From: Psychrobacter fulvigenes
GTDB taxonomy: Bacteria > Pseudomonadota > Gammaproteobacteria > Pseudomonadales > Moraxellaceae
Assembly (NCBI RefSeq): GCF_904846155.1
Contig: NZ_CAJGZP010000001.1
Location: 3,224,001 to 3,288,000 of the forward strand
Length of the DNA: 64,000 nt
Direction: 5' to 3'
Shown here: piece by piece, positions 17,343 to 32,081 of the stretch
Layout of the letters: each line of letters starts with the position of its first letter
Position numbering within the stretch: position 1 is the first letter of the stretch
Notes under the pieces: generated by a model
Told to the model about the DNA's origin: nothing
Databases searched by the model: none
Seen by the model: only the letters and a program-made list of their open reading frames with translations
Made by a program: the position numbers and the translations under genes

Positions 17343-18368
17343 ACCCCAGTTCGGGATAAGGGCTCAAAAAAAAGATAAAAAAAGAAGTCCGAAGTTGCTA
17401 AAGTAAGTTTACCAAGACCACTTAAGCAAAAAGGACTTCTTACATGGACAACCTAACCGAACTATACTGCCATATTGACGACTTTTATCAGCAATTCAAA
17501 CCTGAGTTTGACGCTCATTTAATCGCAACGGGACACCAAAGGTTAAGAGCATGCCAGATAAGTGTAGCAGAGATTATGACCATCTTGGTACTGTTTCATC
17601 AACTGCGGTATCGACAGTTTAAGGCGTTTTACTACCACCATATGCTTGGCATGATGAAACGGGAGTTTCCAAATCTGCCGAGCTACTCGCGATTTATAGA
17701 GCTTGTGCCGCGCAGTATCATGCCACTGTGCAGCTACTTGCAAAGCATGATGGGCGACTGTACGGGTATCAGCTATATTGATTCAACCAAGATAGCAGTT
17801 TGTCATAACAAGCGTATCTACCGTCATAAAGTCTTTAAGGGACTTGCAACCCGAGGCAAAAGCAGCATGGGCTGGTTCTATGGCTTTAAGCTGCACGCCA
17901 TTATCAATCATAAGGGCGAGCTTGTATCTGTTAAAGTCACTGCGGGTAATACGGATGACAGAGTGCCTGTTAAGGATATGGCAACGCCTGTGTTTGGCAA
18001 GGTGTTTGGGGATAGAGGCTATATCAGTAAAGCCCTAAACGAGTGGCTCACAAAACACAGTGATACCACGTTGATAACCAAACTTCGGCGTAATATGAAA
18101 CCCCAATTACTTGAGCCTATGGATGAGGCACTACTCAATCATCGCTCTTTGGTTGAAACGGTGTTTGGAGAGCTTAAAAACTTGTGCCAAATTGAACACT
18201 CACGCCATCGTAGTGTCACGGGGTTTATCACAAACTTGCTGTCAGGTTTAATTGCTTATTGCTGGTTTCCCTATAAACCCACCATCAAAAATATGCCTCA
18301 GCAGGGACAGGTAGCAACATTGTAAATAGTATCAATGAGTTACAATGTGGCTTATCCCGAACTGGGGT
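17343..18368 (+). mobile_element. IS982-family element, complete, with 6-bp target duplication
   Basis: Terminal inverted repeats read ACCCCAGTTCGGGATAAG at 17343-17360 and its reverse complement at 18351-18368. A perfect direct repeat TACTTA flanks it (17337-17342 and 18369-18374), a target duplication of a size seen in this family. The 1026-bp element carries one intact transposase. The perfect ends and target repeat suggest recent insertion. Confidence 0.93.
17444..18325 (+). CDS. IS982-family transposase
   Basis: This intact 293-residue DDE transposase fits the usual 280-300 residues of IS982 transposases. It shows CHIDDFYQQFKPEF at the N-terminus, the first acidic residue in GISYIDSTKIAVC, the second in GDRGYISK, and the third in the block HRSLVETVFGELKNLCQIEHS, followed by RSVTGFITNLLSGLIAYCW. 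It lies centrally between the element's terminal repeats and reads away from trhA. No frame breaks are seen, so the element may be active. Confidence 0.92.
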   Translation: MDNLTELYCHIDDFYQQFKPEFDAHLIATGHQRLRACQISVAEIMTILVLFHQLRYRQFKAFYYHHMLGMMKREFPNLPSYSRFIELVPRSIMPLCSYLQSMMGDCTGISYIDSTKIAVCHNKRIYRHKVFKGLATRGKSSMGWFYGFKLHAIINHKGELVSVKVTAGNTDDRVPVKDMATPVFGKVFGDRGYISKALNEWLTKHSDTTLITKLRRNMKPQLLEPMDEALLNHRSLVETVFGELKNLCQIEHSRHRSVTGFITNLLSGLIAYCWFPYKPTIKNMPQQGQVATL

Positions 18369-23485: not shown

Positions 23486-24036
23486 CACAGGTTAAGGCGT
23501 CACTGCCTACTGATGTGAGCCTAGATCAAGTGGACATCTGGTTTCAAGATGAAACTCGAATAGGACAACAAGGCTCATTGACCAGAGTTTGGCATTACCG
23601 CGGTGGGCGACCTCGACTGATCAAGCAGCAACAGTTTCATTCCGCTTATCTGTTTGGTGCCTTTTGTCCAGCGACAAAGAAGGCTGTCGGCTTAGTACTG
23701 CCTTTCGTTAATAAACACACCATGTTATTGCATATGCAAGAGATTAGTAAAGCCGTTCCAAAAGGACGTCATGCGGTGGTGGTGATGGACGGCGCATTAT
23801 GGCATCAACCAAGCTTGAATCAGGCTAATGTCACTATGCTTAAACTACCGCCTTATTCACCTGAGCTTAATCCCTCTGAGAGGGTATGGCAGTACCTTAA
23901 GCAAAATGAGCTATCTAATCGTTGTTATGACAGTTATGAGGCTATTGTCGATGCCGCATGCTTGGCTTGGAATAATCTACTTAAACAGCCACAAAGGATT
24001 CGGTCTTTAACTACTCGTACCTGGGCGCAACTTTAA
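23478..24036 (+). CDS. IS630 transposase ORFB (DDE catalytic half)
   Basis: The catalytic half has WFQDE, VVMDGALWH and NPSERVWQYLK as the three acidic positions. The frame is open from the A7 run, with no good ribosome site of its own (the first candidate is a GTG at 23515), so it is probably translated only as an ORFA-ORFB fusion. It reads NFIAQVKASLPTDVSLDQV from the slip site. It differs from the truncated copy at one residue noticed (Thr here, Ala there), showing recent common origin. Confidence 0.88.
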
Positions 24037-24439: not shown

Positions 24440-25563
24440 TTAAACCCGTACCAACTCCATCAATGGTTCAAAGGAATAAAGCGTAGAAGTCCTACCAGCG
24501 CCTTCTTCGACCACTTGCAAAATTTTACTTTCTTCTAAAACCTTACTGAATCTAGCTGCCGTAGAGGTAGGAATACCACTTTTACTGGTAAAGCTACTGT
24601 TCCTAAAGACAGGATTAGTAAAAATAAATTCTAGCGCATTTAACGACCATTTTGAGGACAGTAAGTCGCTAAACTCTCTTTTCATAGTCTCATACAGCTG
24701 ACCAATCTGTTCAGCGATTTCTAGATTGTTGGTGGCTTGTTCTTTAACTGCCTCTAAGAAAAATATGCACCAATTATCCCAATTGCCAGTCTCTGAGACT
24801 TCTCGCATCAAATCAATATATCTATCTTTGTTTTCTTCAAAATAACCACTGATATAAAAATGCGGCGCAGAAATCGTCTGTGCTGACCATAATATTAAGG
24901 TAATCAACATTCTACCAATTCTACCGTTACCGTCTTGAAAAGGATGCAAAGCTTCGAACTCTAAATGACTGACGGCCGTTTTTAGCAGTATGGGTGAAGA
25001 GTCGTTATTAATATAGTCAAACAAATCATCCAAGCCACTTTGTAGCTTTTCAGGACTAATCGGTACAAACAAGATACTTTTTTTCGAGCGGTCAGCCAGA
25101 TAGTTTTGCTCACTTTTGAACTGACCGGGCGATTTTTTTGCACCTCTACCCTTTGATAATAGCTGCTGGTGCATGGTTTTTATCAAAGATTTGCTGAGTG
25201 ATAACCATCACTCATTGCCTGCTGTACGTTTTTTAGGGTGCGTTGATAAAGAATAGTTTCAATAATATCACTACGAACCTGCGCCGAATGCCCTTTTCCA
25301 TCACCATAGTCTGCCTCGTACTGCATAATCTCATCTAGGGTACTGATGGTGCCTTCCATACGTGAAGAGATGACCGCTTCTTGATTGCGCAATGGCGCAA
25401 GTAAAATCTCGCTGTTGTGCATGCTTTTGAGCATTTGGTCAAAGCGAGAAATCGCTTCAGTCGCGCCTATCATAGCGTCCATAATGACTTGATAATCGAT
25501 AGATTGAGGGGGAAAGCCGCCATAATGATAATGTACAGCGTGTTCCAAATTGAAATCGGTCAT
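24440..25563 (-). pseudogene. Fic-family protein, split into two frames by a frameshift
   Basis: Two adjacent frames together make a normal Fic protein of about 375 residues. The first (25183-25563, 126 residues) holds the Fic N-terminal domain with the self-inhibitory motif SSRMEG (residues 66-71, Glu70). The second (24440-25186) holds the catalytic core, with HPFQDGNGRIGR beginning at its residue 81, and a C-terminal winged helix (SGIPTSTAARFSKVLEESKIL). Near 25187 one base seems to be missing, so the frame runs to TGA; restoring it gives SLIKTMHQQLL continuously. The second frame can start at TTG 25186, whose bases overlap the TGA. Fic proteins usually transfer AMP to target proteins. It could be a decayed gene, an assembly error or a two-protein form. 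Confidence 0.85.
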
Positions 25564-25574
25564 ATTTACTTGCC

Positions 25575-25747
25575 TTGTCTCTCAAAATGAGCATTCTTTG
25601 ATTCACAAGTTGTATTGTGGCTGGTATTTGAGAGACAAACAAGCTTGTCTCTCATAAATAACGGAAAGTGAGAGGCAAATAGGTTTGTTTCCTAGAGTAA
25701 GAGACTAAATGGACTATTACTTATATTTGGTATCTTTGGAGAGACAA
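25575..25747. promoter_or_regulatory. Five TGAGAGACAA-type boxes between fic and the HD-Hsp90 gene
   Basis: The box TGAGAGACAA or its complement occurs at 25575-25584 (minus), 25629-25638 (plus), 25645-25654 (minus), 25669-25678 (plus, one mismatch) and 25738-25747 (plus, one mismatch). The second and third form a 26-bp palindrome around AAGCTT. The first box sits only 12 bases upstream of the fic ATG. Clustered inverted boxes between divergent genes look like operators, possibly bound by the Fic winged helix. The regulator is not proven. Confidence 0.65.
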
Positions 25748-25876
25748 TGTGGTACTTTCAGTTTAATATAGTTGTTGGAATAAAATTTGCACTAGGTCTT
25801 TACCCTAGAGTATTTTTAAAAACTTATTTGATTGAATCACAATACAAATAAATATGTTTATAAACGGATATTAAGT

Positions 25877-28800
25877 ATGAGCACCCAACTAATTAAACAT
25901 CTCGAAAATAAAGCTGTAGAAGATTCCAATACGTCAATTTTACTTGCACAATGGAGCTTTGACGAGAAATTAGTTAGTAAATCATTAGAGAATATTGCTG
26001 GATATTTTCCACATTTTAGTAGTCACAACTCTTCTCATTCAAAGCAAATACTGATAAACATTGAAAGACTTTTAGGCAAAAACTTAAAACTACTGAGTGC
26101 TACTGATACATGGCTTATTCTCGAATCCGCATATTGGCACGATATAGGTATGCTATTCGATGCTAAAGAAGCGATTGCAGTAACAGAATCAGATGAATTT
26201 AAAGAGTTTGTCGAATCATTGGCGAACGATAAATCTACTGACTTAAATGAGTTCGCATCTAACTATTCAGAAAAAGGTTGGAAAATAGCATTAAGTAACT
26301 ATGAACACCCTCAAATAGGTATTGAGCAGTACCGCCAAATGATAGCTGAATGGTTTAGGAGACATCATCAGGCAAATTCACAAAAAATTGTTAGAGATCC
26401 TTTCAATGAGTTAGGTATTAGCTCTCCACGCACTGAGCTCTTTCCGAATAGAATATATACTTATTTAGGTCAAATTTGTCTTGCACATGGAACAAGCTTT
26501 CAACGTGTTATGACAGAACTACCTTTTAGACAAACAGGTCTAGGTACGGAAAACTGTCATCCGCGCTTTGTAGCTTGTTTATTACGTCTAGGAGATATAT
26601 TTGATATTGATGATAATCGCTTCTGTCCAGTTATGGCAAAACAAGTTTATGACACTCCTTCTTTGAGTCAGGCACATTTTGATAAACATAAATCTATCAG
26701 AGAGTTTCAGTTAGATAATCAAACTGTCAGCATTACTGCTGAGTGCAATAATGAAAGCGCCTATATTGAAACACAGTTATGGTTTGGTTGGATAAAAGAA
26801 GAGCTCCAAGACCAGATGTCTCAATGGAAGAATATAGTTCCTCATAGAAACTTTGGTTTATTACCGACGGTTGAAAAGCTAACGGTTGAAATGACAAACA
26901 CTAAAAAGCTAATCAATGATAAGCCAATGAAATTTAGCATTGATGAGAAAAATGCTATTGAATTATTACAAGGTAAGAATCTGTACGACGATAAAACAAA
27001 TATTTTTCGTGAACTCATTCAAAATGCAGTAGACGCTACTTTATTAAGAGCGTGGATTGAGCATGGTGAAATCAGCGAAACTAAAACGATACAGTCACAC
27101 ATGCATCCTTTTCATGAGACTGTTCAAAAAACTCTTTCAAACTACCCTATCGAAGTTGACTTAGCAAAACTATCCGATTGTGAAGACAGCCAATTCAGTA
27201 TTTGGGAGTTTTCAGTATTAGATAAAGGGCTAGGTATAAGCCTTCAAGATTTACAATACATGCAACAAATAGCAGGTTCAAGTCGTAATATTGAAAAACG
27301 TAGAATTATTAAAACAATGCCTTTGTGGATGAGACCGTCAGGTGAGTTTGGTATTGGTATGCATAGTGCTTTTTTACTAATGGAAGGTTTACCTGATATA
27401 GATAAAAAAATTGTCTTAGAGACTAAAAGTAAGAAGGATAATAAATTATACAAAATTGAACTGACATCTCCATTAACGAAGCAGAGTGGATTCTGTTTCA
27501 TTGAAGAGCTACCAGATGATATGAGTAAGGATTATGGAACTAAATTGACTGTTAAGGTTTCATTATCTAAGCATAGGTATCATTTAAGCAACTTTGGGTT
27601 TGAGGTTCACGATAAATTTGATAGGCTAAAGGGTTCTATTGCAGATTACGTTAATGCACATTATTACATCGAAAAGATATCTAACTCCATAGCTAGACAG
27701 ACACCAGTTCTTGTTAAATTACATAGAAGGTGGAGTGAATTCCATAATAATGATCTTGAGAATGACTTTCGAATATGGGATGAAAAAAGAAATCTATACA
27801 TTAAACTTGAGACTCATTCTGATGGAGTTGCATTGACTGACCTGCAAACCGATACCTATGGTTTATTCCGTGGTCAGAAGGTTGAATCTATGAACGTCTA
27901 CTTTCTTCCTAGTTCGATTGATTACTACGGTTTTAATGCTAAAGAAGCACTTCAAATTGATAGAAATAAGTGGCAAAGACAGTTCATATTAAAGCTTATT
28001 GACGAAGGGTATTTTCGTAGTTTGTTTAAATATATTGTCGATGAGAAGACTGATTTGATTGAGGATAAGTTTTATGATAAAAAAGTGATTAGTGCCTACA
28101 ATAGGATGCTTGGATTTAGAAGTGAAAAGTATAAAGATAATGATTCATGGAGAGATCTTAAATTTTTTAACGATAAAAACACATTATTTGGGAGAAAGGT
28201 AAAAGATAAGAATAGTTTCAACAAACTAATCTCTCTTGAAAAAGTAGTTATTCAATTTGACAAAACACATAGTATCTTTAATGGTAAAGACAAACCTAAG
28301 GCAAAAGAATTATTAACGACTGTAAATGAGAACAATTTTTTTCTAAGAGCATTTATTCAAGAGTGGTACGCTCTTGGTGGTTATCATAAAGTAATAGAAG
28401 GCCATAATAAGCTAAAAATGAAGTTTAATAGATCTAAAAATGATGAGTTTGATAATACCTTATTATTTTATTTAGAAGGGTTATTACATAAATCAAAAAG
28501 AATCTTTCTTGCTCCAGAAAAGTTGGATAGTATTGATAAGCTAAGACCATTCAAAGAGCTAATTTGCTCTAGCGATATTCATAAAAACTATTTTGGAACA
28601 GATGATAAAGAAACTACTGAATCACTATTAATTCCTTTTTTTTCCTTTAAGAATAATGACCTAGTAGTTATCACACTTGAATCATTAGATATGATTATTG
28701 ATGCTGTTTGGATCGAAAAAAAGAAGCAAGATAAGGAGGTTAAGAAGGAATATATTAGTAAGCTTTATCAGGATCTAGCTATTATCTTAGACGAGACAAT

Positions 28801-28891
28801 GCAAAATAGTAACGACTGGAAAGAAGCAAGAGAAAGAAGTAAAGAATTTAGTAGTTTCGATAGTTCTATACTATCTAAGTATGATAAATAA
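25877..28891 (+). CDS. HD phosphohydrolase - Hsp90-like ATPase fusion protein, function unknown
   Basis: I use the ATG at 25877 (1004 residues); a TTG at 25832 gives 15 more. The N-terminus is an HD-type metal phosphohydrolase with a full set of ligand candidates: His54 (NSSHSKQIL), His88-Asp89 (AYWHDIGM), His163-164 (RRHHQ), His204 (CLAHG) and Asp239 (LRLGDIFDI). Next comes a GHKL ATPase with an Hsp90-like pattern: N-box FRELIQNAVDATLLR (Glu379, Asn383, Asp386), DKGLGIS at 449-455 and GEFGIGMHSAFLL from 489. The last 500 residues are Lys/Asn-rich with no domain I recognise. Codons are markedly AT-rich compared with the flanking genes, suggesting transfer. Hydrolase plus chaperone-type ATPase in one chain, beside fic, hints at a stress or defence role, which is an inference. 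Confidence 0.8.
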   Translation: MSTQLIKHLENKAVEDSNTSILLAQWSFDEKLVSKSLENIAGYFPHFSSHNSSHSKQILINIERLLGKNLKLLSATDTWLILESAYWHDIGMLFDAKEAIAVTESDEFKEFVESLANDKSTDLNEFASNYSEKGWKIALSNYEHPQIGIEQYRQMIAEWFRRHHQANSQKIVRDPFNELGISSPRTELFPNRIYTYLGQICLAHGTSFQRVMTELPFRQTGLGTENCHPRFVACLLRLGDIFDIDDNRFCPVMAKQVYDTPSLSQAHFDKHKSIREFQLDNQTVSITAECNNESAYIETQLWFGWIKEELQDQMSQWKNIVPHRNFGLLPTVEKLTVEMTNTKKLINDKPMKFSIDEKNAIELLQGKNLYDDKTNIFRELIQNAVDATLLRAWIEHGEISETKTIQSHMHPFHETVQKTLSNYPIEVDLAKLSDCEDSQFSIWEFSVLDKGLGISLQDLQYMQQIAGSSRNIEKRRIIKTMPLWMRPSGEFGIGMHSAFLLMEGLPDIDKKIVLETKSKKDNKLYKIELTSPLTKQSGFCFIEELPDDMSKDYGTKLTVKVSLSKHRYHLSNFGFEVHDKFDRLKGSIADYVNAHYYIEKISNSIARQTPVLVKLHRRWSEFHNNDLENDFRIWDEKRNLYIKLETHSDGVALTDLQTDTYGLFRGQKVESMNVYFLPSSIDYYGFNAKEALQIDRNKWQRQFILKLIDEGYFRSLFKYIVDEKTDLIEDKFYDKKVISAYNRMLGFRSEKYKDNDSWRDLKFFNDKNTLFGRKVKDKNSFNKLISLEKVVIQFDKTHSIFNGKDKPKAKELLTTVNENNFFLRAFIQEWYALGGYHKVIEGHNKLKMKFNRSKNDEFDNTLLFYLEGLLHKSKRIFLAPEKLDSIDKLRPFKELICSSDIHKNYFGTDDKETTESLLIPFFSFKNNDLVVITLESLDMIIDAVWIEKKKQDKEVKKEYISKLYQDLAIILDETMQNSNDWKEARERSKEFSSFDSSILSKYDK

Positions 28892-29213
28892 ACTTGCATT
28901 TTATAAATGTTGTCTTCAACTGTGAAGTTCACCTAGCTTGTCATGTTTTATCTTGTTATAGGTGCGCCAAGCCGCACCATTATATATAAACTCATCTAAG
29001 CCACGATAAATATCAGCAAGAACACAATCTCACCGCTAGCCCTGATTGCAGCGGATATCCTGGCGGACTAGGCGAGTTGCGGGCGCTTGGTTTTGAGACG
29101 ATATCGAGGCAACAGGAACGGCTCAAACCGTAGCGCCCGCCTCGCCTAGACTGGCAGATAGTAGCAAAAAGCAGGATAAGCTCCTAAAAAACCATTCAAA
29201 AACTACCACCCAC
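28892..29213. other. Non-coding tail of the islet
   Basis: No gene is visible. The AT-rich islet DNA changes near 29000 into GC-richer sequence that contains the large inverted repeat described separately. This may mark the islet boundary. Confidence 0.4.
29068..29149. repeat. Large nested inverted repeat (82 bp)
   Basis: The outer arms are CTAGGCGAG-TTGC-GGGCGCT and AGCGCCC-GC-CTCGCCTAG. Inside them GGTTTTGAG and CTCAAACC pair again, leaving a loop of about 24 bases. Arms are GC-rich in an AT-rich neighbourhood and lack a T tract, so this is not a simple terminator. It could be a structured RNA or a repeat-type element; no other copy was noticed in the window. Confidence 0.65.
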
Positions 29214-29273: not shown

Positions 29274-32081
29274 TTACGCTGCGTCTTTGCTATCCGCTGC
29301 CAGCTGACGCAGTACATAGTGCAATACACCGCCATGACGCACGTATTCGCGCTCTTTTGGCGTCTGCAGACCAACATTCACTTCAAACACTTCCTCTGAA
29401 CCATCAGCACGAGTAGCAGTCACTTTGGCAGTTTTGCTCTCGCCATTATCAAGCCCTGTAATGCTAATGACTTCTGAACCATCAAGCTTGTAAGTATCTG
29501 CGTTTTCACCATCTTTAAAGGTCAATGGCAACACGCCCATACCGACTAGGTTTGAACGGTGAATACGCTCGAACGAAGTTGTCAGTACTGCTTTTACGCC
29601 AAGCAAAATCGTACCTTTCGCTGCCCAGTCACGGCTAGAGCCAGAACCATACTCTGCACCGCCAAGTACTACTAGGGGACGCTTATCTTCTTTATACTTC
29701 ATTGCCGCATCATAGATGGCCATTTCTTCGCCGTCTTGTAGCGTGGCTTTGTCGTCTTTGAAGTAATACGTATAACCACCCTCTTTGCCATCCATCATAG
29801 TATTTTTGATACGGATGTTGGCAAAGGTACCGCGAGTCATGACCGCGTCATTACCACGGCGTGAGCCATAACTGTTAAAGTCGGCTTCCATTACACCGCG
29901 CTCTTGCAAGTACTTGCCAGCAGGCGATTCGGCATCGATGTTACCCGCCGGTGAGATGTGGTCAGTAGTGATTGAATCACCGAATAGACCTAGGATACGC
30001 GCGCCTTCGATATCTAGGATACCTTCTGGCTCCATGGTCATATCATCAAAGAACGGTGGGTTCTTGATATAAGTAGACTCTTCGCTCCACGGATACAACT
30101 GGCTATCTGCTGAGCTAATGGCATTCCACGCTTTACTACCGTCAAACACTTCGCCGTAGTTTTTGCGGAACATTTCAGCATCGATGTTATTGGCAATCAG
30201 CTCATTAATCTCAGCTGACGTTGGCCAGATGTCTTTTAAGAAGACATCATTACCTTCTAAATCTTGACCTAGTGGATGGGTCGTCAAGTCAATATCGACC
30301 GTCCCTGCTAGTGCATAAGCGACAACCAGTGGTGGTGAAGCTAAATAGCTGGCTTTCACATGTGAGTGAATACGACCTTCAAAGTTACGGTTACCTGATA
30401 GTACGGCTGCGGCAACCAAGTCATTGTCTTCGATAGCCTCTTCAATCGCATCTAATAGCGGACCTGAGTTACCGATACAAGTAGTACAACCATAACCAAC
30501 CAGATAGAAACCTACTTTTTCAAGTTCATCCATTAGCTGAGACTTTTCGAGATAATCAGTCACAACTTTTGAGCCTGGTGCAAGAGAGGTTTTGACCCAT
30601 GGCTTAGCTGTCAACCCTTTAGCCGCTGCTTTTTTAGCGACTAGGCCTGCACCAATCATAACGGCAGGGTTTGAAGTATTGGTACAAGAGGTAATCGCTG
30701 CGATCACAACAGAACCATCACGCAGTTTATACTCTTCATCTTCAATTTTGATAGTACATGAGGTGCTACCATCCGCGCAGAACGGATTCGGTTTGGCTGC
30801 TAGCTTTTCAGCTTGCTCTTGCTTACCGCCTTCTTCATCAAAACGCACTTTGGCATCTTCTTCGACTTTACGGCCTTTGGTCATCTCTTTTAGAGTATCG
30901 CCAAATTTTTCGTGCATATCAGATAGGTTGATACGCTGCTGCGGTAGGTTAGGACCAGCAAGCGCAGGTTGCACTGTACTGAGATCTAGATGCAAGTTGC
31001 TTGAGTAAGTCGCTGGCTGAGTATCGGCATCATGCCACATACCTTGTGCCTTGGCGTACTTCTCAACCAATTCGATCTGATTCTCATCACGACCTGATAG
31101 ACGTAGATAATCAATCGCCATTTGGTCAATGGGGAAAATACCACAAGTTGCGCCATATTCTGGTGACATATTGGCAATCGTCGCTCGATCCGCCAGTGGC
31201 ATTTGATGTAAGCCTTCGCCGTAAAATTCGACGAACTTACCAACCACGCCATGCTTACGCAACATCTCAACCACACGTAATACTAAGTCAGTTGCCGTGA
31301 CGCCTTCAGACAGCTCGCCCGTCATCTCAAAGCCGACGACTTGTGGAATGAGCATCGAAGAAGGTTGGCCTAGCATTGCTGCTTCGGCTTCAATACCGCC
31401 CACACCCCAACCAAGCACACCGATACCATTAATCATCGTGGTGTGACTATCAGTACCAAAAACAGTATCTGGATAAGCAGTCAGCTCGCCATCGACTTCT
31501 GCTGCCATGACGACGCGTGCTAAATACTCTAGGTTAACTTGATGCACGATACCAGTAGCGGGTGGTACGACCACGAAGTTTTCAAAGGCATGCTTGCCCC
31601 AATGCAAGAATTCATAACGCTCATTGTTGCGTTTAAATTCAATTTTTTCGTTCAAATCAAGCGAGTCTTCACGCCCGTACACATCGACCTGTACTGAATG
31701 GTCAACGACCAATTCACTTGGGATAAAGGGGTTGATTTGCTCAGCTTTACCGCCAAGCTTAACAACCGCATCACGCATCGCTGCCAAATCGACGACTGAT
31801 GGTACACCGGTAAAATCCTGCAATACCACGCGCGCTGGCATAAAGGCGATTTCTTTTGAAGCCTCTGCTGCTGCATCCCAGTTGGCAACCGCTTCGATAT
31901 GGTTTTTGCCAACAGACTGGCCGCCATCTTCGTTACGTAATAGGTTCTCTAATACGACCTTCATACAAAACGGTAGCGTATTGATGTTGTCATAAGTCTC
32001 AGCAAGTTTGGGCAGACTATAGTAGGCATGCTCCTTGCCGTCGACCGAAATGGTGTCTTTTACATTAAAAATATCACTCAT
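29274..32081 (-). CDS. acnA: Aconitate hydratase A
   Basis: AcnA interconverts citrate and isocitrate in the TCA cycle through a 4Fe-4S cluster. The three cluster cysteines are Cys466 (AAITSCTNTSNP) and Cys532 and Cys535 (GYGCTTCIGNSGPL). Other landmarks are FGTDSHTTMINGIGVLGWGVGG, GNRNFEGRIHSHVKASYLAS and the C-terminal swivel domain with YGSGSSRDWAAKG. At 935 residues it is about 40 longer than E. coli AcnA, mainly through an acidic/Lys-rich insert around residues 395-440 that contains its own extra Cys pair. The gene is monocistronic, with palindromes upstream and a terminator downstream. Confidence 0.96.
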   Translation of the reverse strand: MSDIFNVKDTISVDGKEHAYYSLPKLAETYDNINTLPFCMKVVLENLLRNEDGGQSVGKNHIEAVANWDAAAEASKEIAFMPARVVLQDFTGVPSVVDLAAMRDAVVKLGGKAEQINPFIPSELVVDHSVQVDVYGREDSLDLNEKIEFKRNNERYEFLHWGKHAFENFVVVPPATGIVHQVNLEYLARVVMAAEVDGELTAYPDTVFGTDSHTTMINGIGVLGWGVGGIEAEAAMLGQPSSMLIPQVVGFEMTGELSEGVTATDLVLRVVEMLRKHGVVGKFVEFYGEGLHQMPLADRATIANMSPEYGATCGIFPIDQMAIDYLRLSGRDENQIELVEKYAKAQGMWHDADTQPATYSSNLHLDLSTVQPALAGPNLPQQRINLSDMHEKFGDTLKEMTKGRKVEEDAKVRFDEEGGKQEQAEKLAAKPNPFCADGSTSCTIKIEDEEYKLRDGSVVIAAITSCTNTSNPAVMIGAGLVAKKAAAKGLTAKPWVKTSLAPGSKVVTDYLEKSQLMDELEKVGFYLVGYGCTTCIGNSGPLLDAIEEAIEDNDLVAAAVLSGNRNFEGRIHSHVKASYLASPPLVVAYALAGTVDIDLTTHPLGQDLEGNDVFLKDIWPTSAEINELIANNIDAEMFRKNYGEVFDGSKAWNAISSADSQLYPWSEESTYIKNPPFFDDMTMEPEGILDIEGARILGLFGDSITTDHISPAGNIDAESPAGKYLQERGVMEADFNSYGSRRGNDAVMTRGTFANIRIKNTMMDGKEGGYTYYFKDDKATLQDGEEMAIYDAAMKYKEDKRPLVVLGGAEYGSGSSRDWAAKGTILLGVKAVLTTSFERIHRSNLVGMGVLPLTFKDGENADTYKLDGSEVISITGLDNGESKTAKVTATRADGSEEVFEVNVGLQTPKEREYVRHGGVLHYVLRQLAADSKDAA

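Follow-up and report, generated by a model that had tools for sequence, protein, structure and literature searches.

Avs-type STAND receptors are laid out as an effector, an ATP switch and a variable sensor. Nicastro et al. are said to have proposed in 2023 that HSP90 modules act as analogues of STAND and are coupled to effectors that target nucleotides; the names HD-CE and iHD-CE reportedly come from the same work, in which HD-CE is said to be predicted to hydrolyse nucleotides. Here we describe a gene whose product belongs to this predicted kind (25877..28891, + strand, 1004 amino acids), located in a stretch of 64,000 nucleotides of Psychrobacter fulvigenes DNA, hereafter the window. Like the HD-CE/HSP90 systems reportedly described by Nicastro et al., the protein carries HD-CE beside an Hsp90-like ATPase in one chain; what we add is a pattern of segment exchange and a shared chromosomal site, which that work may or may not contain. 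We propose, with a probability of about two in three, that the protein is a single-gene immune receptor combining an HD-CE effector, an Hsp90-type ATP clamp and a variable sensor.

Other described systems share parts of this design. The three-layer layout is that of the STAND (Avs-type) receptors, and in one case (L101, below) HD-CE occurs with TPR and a sub-cut-off nSTAND match; the STAND switch is a P-loop NTPase, whereas the switch of the window protein would be an Hsp90-type GHKL module. HtpG, TRAP1 and Hsp90 resemble it in the ATP-site residues, in an arginine motif and, going by the predicted fold, in the N and middle domains, but the window protein differs from them in its N-terminal HD enzyme and its fast-changing middle part. 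VcSduA, a tested Shedu defence enzyme, likewise has a GHKL ATPase domain that is proposed to control the defence effector of the same chain; its effector is a C-terminal PD-(D/E)xK nuclease, whereas that of the window protein is an N-terminal HD hydrolase (PMC12137116). CloA of the Clover system is a nucleotide-hydrolysing HD enzyme with a tested role in phage defence, and nucleotide hydrolysis is also predicted for the window protein; unlike the latter, CloA is a dNTPase octamer with a separate nucleotidyltransferase regulator, an N-terminal HD domain and a C-terminal helical bundle, and the cited sections describe no GHKL domain (PMC12265719). Literature searches within one library listed no paper on an HD and Hsp90 defence protein.

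Domain architecture

The frame at 25877-28891 is open and stop-free over its full length, and the single 1004-residue chain reported in the first-pass annotation therefore stands. An alternative TTG start 45 nucleotides upstream would give 1019 amino acids; the MS- start is common to nearly all of 30 aligned relatives. When 7991 candidates were scored, 833 homologues were retained at E≤0.001, and a sequence search for relatives in the PDB gave none at E≤10. Conservation was read from an alignment of 99 sequences, made up of 86 of 120 listed homologous proteins (picked mostly by length) and 13 loci.

Residues 44-311 (26006..26809, +) form an HD-CE phosphohydrolase domain (Pfam PF24391, E 5.8e-51), with a score of 174.1 bits against a curated cut-off of 27 and coverage of positions 1-262 of the 263-position profile. 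H50, H88, D89, H164, H204 and D240 of this part are invariant. The metal-site set proposed earlier is upheld for H88-D89, H164 and H204, and H54 is nearly invariant; the fifth residue has to be corrected to D240, as position 239 is a glycine.

The HD-CE domain is followed at about residues 346-560 (26912..27556, +) by an Hsp90/GHKL N-type ATPase domain, detected by NCBIfam, hhalign and fold match. The NCBIfam Hsp90 family model NF010683 matched residues 351-568 (E 3.4e-8), hhalign to one HtpG gave E 2.6e-9, and HATPase_c_3 matched below its cut-off (E 0.0023). Because the NF010683 score of 32.4 bits is far under the curated cut-off of 455, we term the protein Hsp90-like and not Hsp90. The ATP-site set is present (N-box Glu/Asn/Asp, adenine Asp and glycine motif), and E379, N383, D386, D449, G453, G489, G492 and G494 are invariant, in agreement with the GHKL pattern first noted from the sequence. 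The HD and N-box residues are both kept across the 99 sequences.

The C-terminal 500 residues had been described as devoid of any recognisable domain. This is true of sequence libraries but not of the predicted fold, in which residues 561-754, approximately, match the Hsp90 middle domain (27557..28138, +). Within this part, R696 (codon 27962..27964, +) lies in an L-x-x-[SDN]-R motif and is an arginine in 25/25 aligned copies and in at least 90% of the 99 sequences; it is a candidate Hsp90-type arginine finger that would be equivalent to yeast R380. The remaining residues, about 755-1004 (28139..28888, +), show very low identity among relatives and constitute the proposed sensor. Taken alone, residues 740-1004 gave no clear match in a fold comparison, a result that does not establish a new fold, and on the strength of this comparison no Hsp90 C-terminal domain was recognised.

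Accessory distribution and a shared chromosomal site

A stress or phage-defence cassette had been suggested from the sequence, and the genomic evidence supports the defence role through (i) an accessory distribution, (ii) alternation with defence genes at one site, and (iii) a variable C-terminal half. The gene is not a single-copy core gene of Psychrobacter: it was found in 16 of 105 genomes, two of these copies being distant (24-27% identity), and 89 genomes gave no match. The window's own genome has one match only. Plasmid or phage carriage was considered and rejected, as matches occurred in only 5 of 72,556 plasmid records and 1 of 50,697 phage records, all below 60% identity.

Twelve of the 14 close Psychrobacter copies lie at one place, adjoining what we take to be an amidase gene, with the presumed purL on the opposite side in 11 of the 12 (in L027 the contig ends in the gene). 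The Acinetobacter loci all have the same thiolase (fadA-type) gene nearby (8/8); in six of the seven loci viewed it is the immediate neighbour, and in L046 two open reading frames (ORFs) lie between. What occupies the Psychrobacter site elsewhere? purL was present in 59 of 60 genomes sampled, of which nine carry the gene at the purL site, leaving 50. Twenty intervals were surveyed, 18 without the gene and two from genomes with the gene elsewhere (the window's own genome and G089), and 11 of them contained defence genes. A PADLOC match at 1e-8 or better was obtained in 8 of 12 scanned intervals (ThsB twice, RmrA+RmrT, PDC-S33, PDC-S71 with a helicase, PDC-S32, AriA+AriB, and LmuA+LmuB), and RmrA/RmrT were recognised by homology in three further intervals. 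At the protein level, 12 of 20 scanned site proteins matched at 1e-8, including the pairs AriA/AriB, LmuA/LmuB and RmrA/RmrT. The gene thus has its site in common with defence systems.

The same anatomy would suit a guard against plasmids, other mobile elements or rival cells instead of phages. The genomic nature of all the evidence leaves room for such a guard, as does a Panacea-antitoxin-type gene that the shared site also holds; the best-matched site systems (ThsB, PARIS, Lamassu and RmrAT) come, however, from an anti-phage library, and we consider this target unlikely.

In the window's own genome, a PARIS-like AriA/AriB pair (L128:371-2409) occupies the purL site, at which the majority of the gene's close relatives are found. 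Two other intervals carry a ThsB-type TIR gene with a second gene directly after it (L118:990-2364 and L127:305-1670), which in L118 encodes a SLATT membrane protein; no ThsA was noticed in either by inspection of the displayed region.

Exchange of the C-terminal half in some pairs

Among the 99 sequences, 262 of 4851 protein pairs have an HD identity of at least 95%; their median identity is 74% over GHKL, 19% over the middle part and 20% over the C part. P0053 and P0082, for example, are 100% identical over HD, 50% over GHKL and 13% over both the middle and C parts. The protein set includes many metagenome proteins, and the count was repeated on the DNA of 14 genome copies (three interrupted, one cut by a contig end) with the core gene acnA as yardstick (29274..32081, −; presumably aconitase, with a DNA match in 13/13 genomes searched). 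Over the 91 pairs, median DNA identity was 82.1% for HD and 82.4% for acnA, falling to 59.7% for GHKL and 43.3% for the middle and C parts (M+C), where about 40% is the background level of the alignment. The first third of the gene differed from the rest by more than 15 points in 86/91 pairs, against 0/91 for acnA.

In 45 pairs of the 10 unbroken copies, the median proportion of synonymous differences (pS) was near saturation throughout (0.73 for HD, 0.74 for GHKL and 0.70 for M+C), and amino-acid-changing differences climbed from 0.08 to 0.33 to 0.58 over the same parts. Because synonymous sites are nearly saturated in all parts, most pairs document low conservation without proving exchange. 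Among 291 protein pairs with an identity of at least 95% over HD residues 1-330, 281 show change points, which fall for the most part within residues 320-420 and 540-580, and 10 show none; part of this pattern may reflect constraint rather than crossover.

Individual pairs do prove exchange. L020 and L024 are 87.7% identical over HD, after which only two differences separate them along a tract of ~2.3 kb; the start of this tract lies within the gene, near alignment nucleotide 887, and its end roughly coincides with that of the gene. Their acnA genes are 84.8% identical. L021 and L029 are 92.6% identical over HD, dropping to 57% over GHKL and 41% over the rest, with pS values of 0.33, 0.75 and 0.67, respectively. 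L018 and L019 show the opposite pattern, with a pS of 0.60 over HD, 0.19 over GHKL and 0.32 over the rest. In some pairs, a conserved effector is therefore combined with an exchanged sensor.

A variable C-terminal half need not be a sensor: its variation could stem from phage inhibitors that bind it, or from weak constraint. Either would fit low conservation taken alone and the saturated synonymous sites of most pairs, as well as the interrupted copies, which include 3 of 13 fetched Psychrobacter relatives (L020, L022 and L023) and L046; the L027 copy ends at a contig edge, inside the gene. Weak constraint is disfavoured because it would not give a low pS in HD only (L021/L029), its reverse (L018/L019) or a near-identical tract confined to the GHKL-to-end part (L020/L024), and we rate a C-terminal half without sensor function as somewhat less likely still than the non-phage target.

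Orphan C-terminal modules beside the gene, in the style of contact toxins, were sought and not found in 43 fetched loci (several being the same place fetched twice) and the window; second C-type matches occurred only in L022 and L056, where the matches are the two pieces of one interrupted gene.

Proposed mechanism

How could such a receptor work? The variable C-terminal half (the Hsp90-like middle domain and about 250 further residues) would recognise a molecule of the invader. ATP would be bound by the Hsp90-type N+M module, which is probably dimeric and which R696 may hold in one clamp state. Recognition would shift the clamp state and unleash the N-terminal HD-CE phosphohydrolase, which would break down nucleotides (NTPs/dNTPs or a signalling nucleotide); their loss would arrest the growth of the phage and be costly to the cell itself. 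That an ATP-driven clamp gates the hydrolase, as the first-pass annotation had speculated, is plausible and gains strength from the fold predicted for the N+M part and from the conserved arginine, although the coupling itself is inferred. Since the HD part keeps a core-gene level of DNA identity, the enzyme probably acts on a universal cell component, most simply nucleotides. The C-terminal half varies in the way expected of a recognition surface, and the ATP site that separates the two, with its candidate arginine finger, is a complete one of the Hsp90 type.

Several points weigh against the immune-receptor reading: (i) A PADLOC scan of the 1004-residue protein returned 0 families at E≤10, and the hhalign alignment to HtpG ends at the N-domain. 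(ii) Exopolyphosphatase and cyclic-nucleotide phosphodiesterases are also among the matches of the fold comparison, and given these neighbours the enzyme could act on a signal or on polyphosphate. (iii) Constraint alone could explain the contrast between HD and the C-terminal half in most pairs, segment exchange being shown in particular pairs only. (iv) The window copy and its nearest relative, L017, are not at the purL/amidase site. The site survey took in 20 of the 50 eligible genomes, picked from a listing and not at random, and its PADLOC scan covered 12 intervals and 20 proteins of about 41 ORFs, mostly the larger ones. In five of the 20 intervals, every gene is unmatched or has just a weak match (L122, L123, L131, L137, and L132 with a weak TIR match at 3.6e-6), and four are empty, with flank genes and one 93-residue ORF only. 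(v) A control scan of 47 window ORFs matched 12 PADLOC families at 1e-8, with one member each except SoFic (2); because several of these are general helicase-type models, single PADLOC matches are weak evidence.

Least likely of the alternatives is a stress protein, which could be an Hsp90-like chaperone that an HD enzyme assists, or could regulate (p)ppGpp, cyclic nucleotides or polyphosphate. The predicted N+M fold and the exopolyphosphatase and phosphodiesterase neighbours would suit it, but 89 of 105 Psychrobacter genomes lack a match and the C-terminal half is in some pairs exchanged, not conserved.

Building on the immune receptor that we favour, we tentatively suggest that the Hsp90-type clamp is a bacterial counterpart of NLR/STAND receptors, in which recombination keeps the HD effector and swaps the ATP-clamp/sensor cassette to give a one-site receptor repertoire with a shared killing arm. 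If this is true, the client holding of a chaperone would have been turned into holding and recognising invader proteins, and the Hsp90 fold would be connected with bacterial immune recognition. The alleles would then be natural matched sets with near-identical effectors and unrelated sensors, making directly testable what an Hsp90-type immune module senses and how the clamp switches the enzyme.

HD-CE with other partners

Of 398 genomes sampled across the phylum, 17 gave an HD-CE match above the cut-off, as against none of 14 control genomes. Nine HD-CE proteins from this survey were scanned for domains. Five combine HD-CE with a GHKL match (below the Pfam cut-off in L096, and in a frame of 446 residues in L094), one with WD40 repeats (L098:9524-12616) and one with TPR and an nSTAND match below cut-off (E 2.3e-6, L101:7140-10979); the other two join iHD-CE to wHTH-HSP90_Na-assoc (L100:7332-10718 and L102:7297-11079). 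Two shorter HD-CE proteins adjoin a C5-methyltransferase and an ORC-CDC6-like ATPase. Given this variety of partners, HD-CE is a portable effector. PADLOC was run on 80 neighbour ORFs of the distant HD-CE loci (70 of 177 listed, and 10 from L103/L104), and the 25 families listed, of 151 matched, have two members each and are mostly C5-methyltransferase models, fitting L103/L104.

By eye, the region before iHD-CE in L100 and L102 is Mrr-like. An operon-like run at L104:533-9658 comprises a C5-methyltransferase, a 629-residue protein with a GHKL-like N-box by eye and no convincing Pfam match, a stand-alone HD-CE, an ORC-CDC6-like ATPase and, also by eye, a Vsr-like ORF; it is a possible multi-gene defence system.

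Surroundings of the window copy

The window copy has fic on one side and acnA on the other, and seven other genomes have varied genes beside acnA at this site. At the DNA level, the window and L017 are homologous over 25876-28928 only, confirming the lone position noted earlier; the unit moved or kept is therefore the gene alone. A terminator-like hairpin lies 3' of the gene (28961..28978, +, from a pattern scan that found 4 sites in the region against 1.6 expected).

The divergent neighbour fic (24440..25563, −) is SoFic-like and split over two overlapping frames, presumably the two of the 47 window ORFs that matched SoFic in PADLOC (best E 1.4e-78), and it looks broken or frameshifted. The Fic neighbour noted in the first-pass annotation is thus real but is not a conserved partner: none was seen by eye among three neighbours on each side at 24 other loci, judged on the first 75 residues, and among the 40 largest neighbour clusters only the gene's own contains a window gene. 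The upstream region common to both genes holds, towards fic (25574-25747), operator-like repeats and inverted repeats of TTGTCTCTCA / TGAGAGACAA. The stretch looks rich in mobile elements, since the ORFs at 93-611 and 23515-24033 are a 99% identical pair that is transposase-like by eye, and a further transposase-like ORF lies at 17444-18325.
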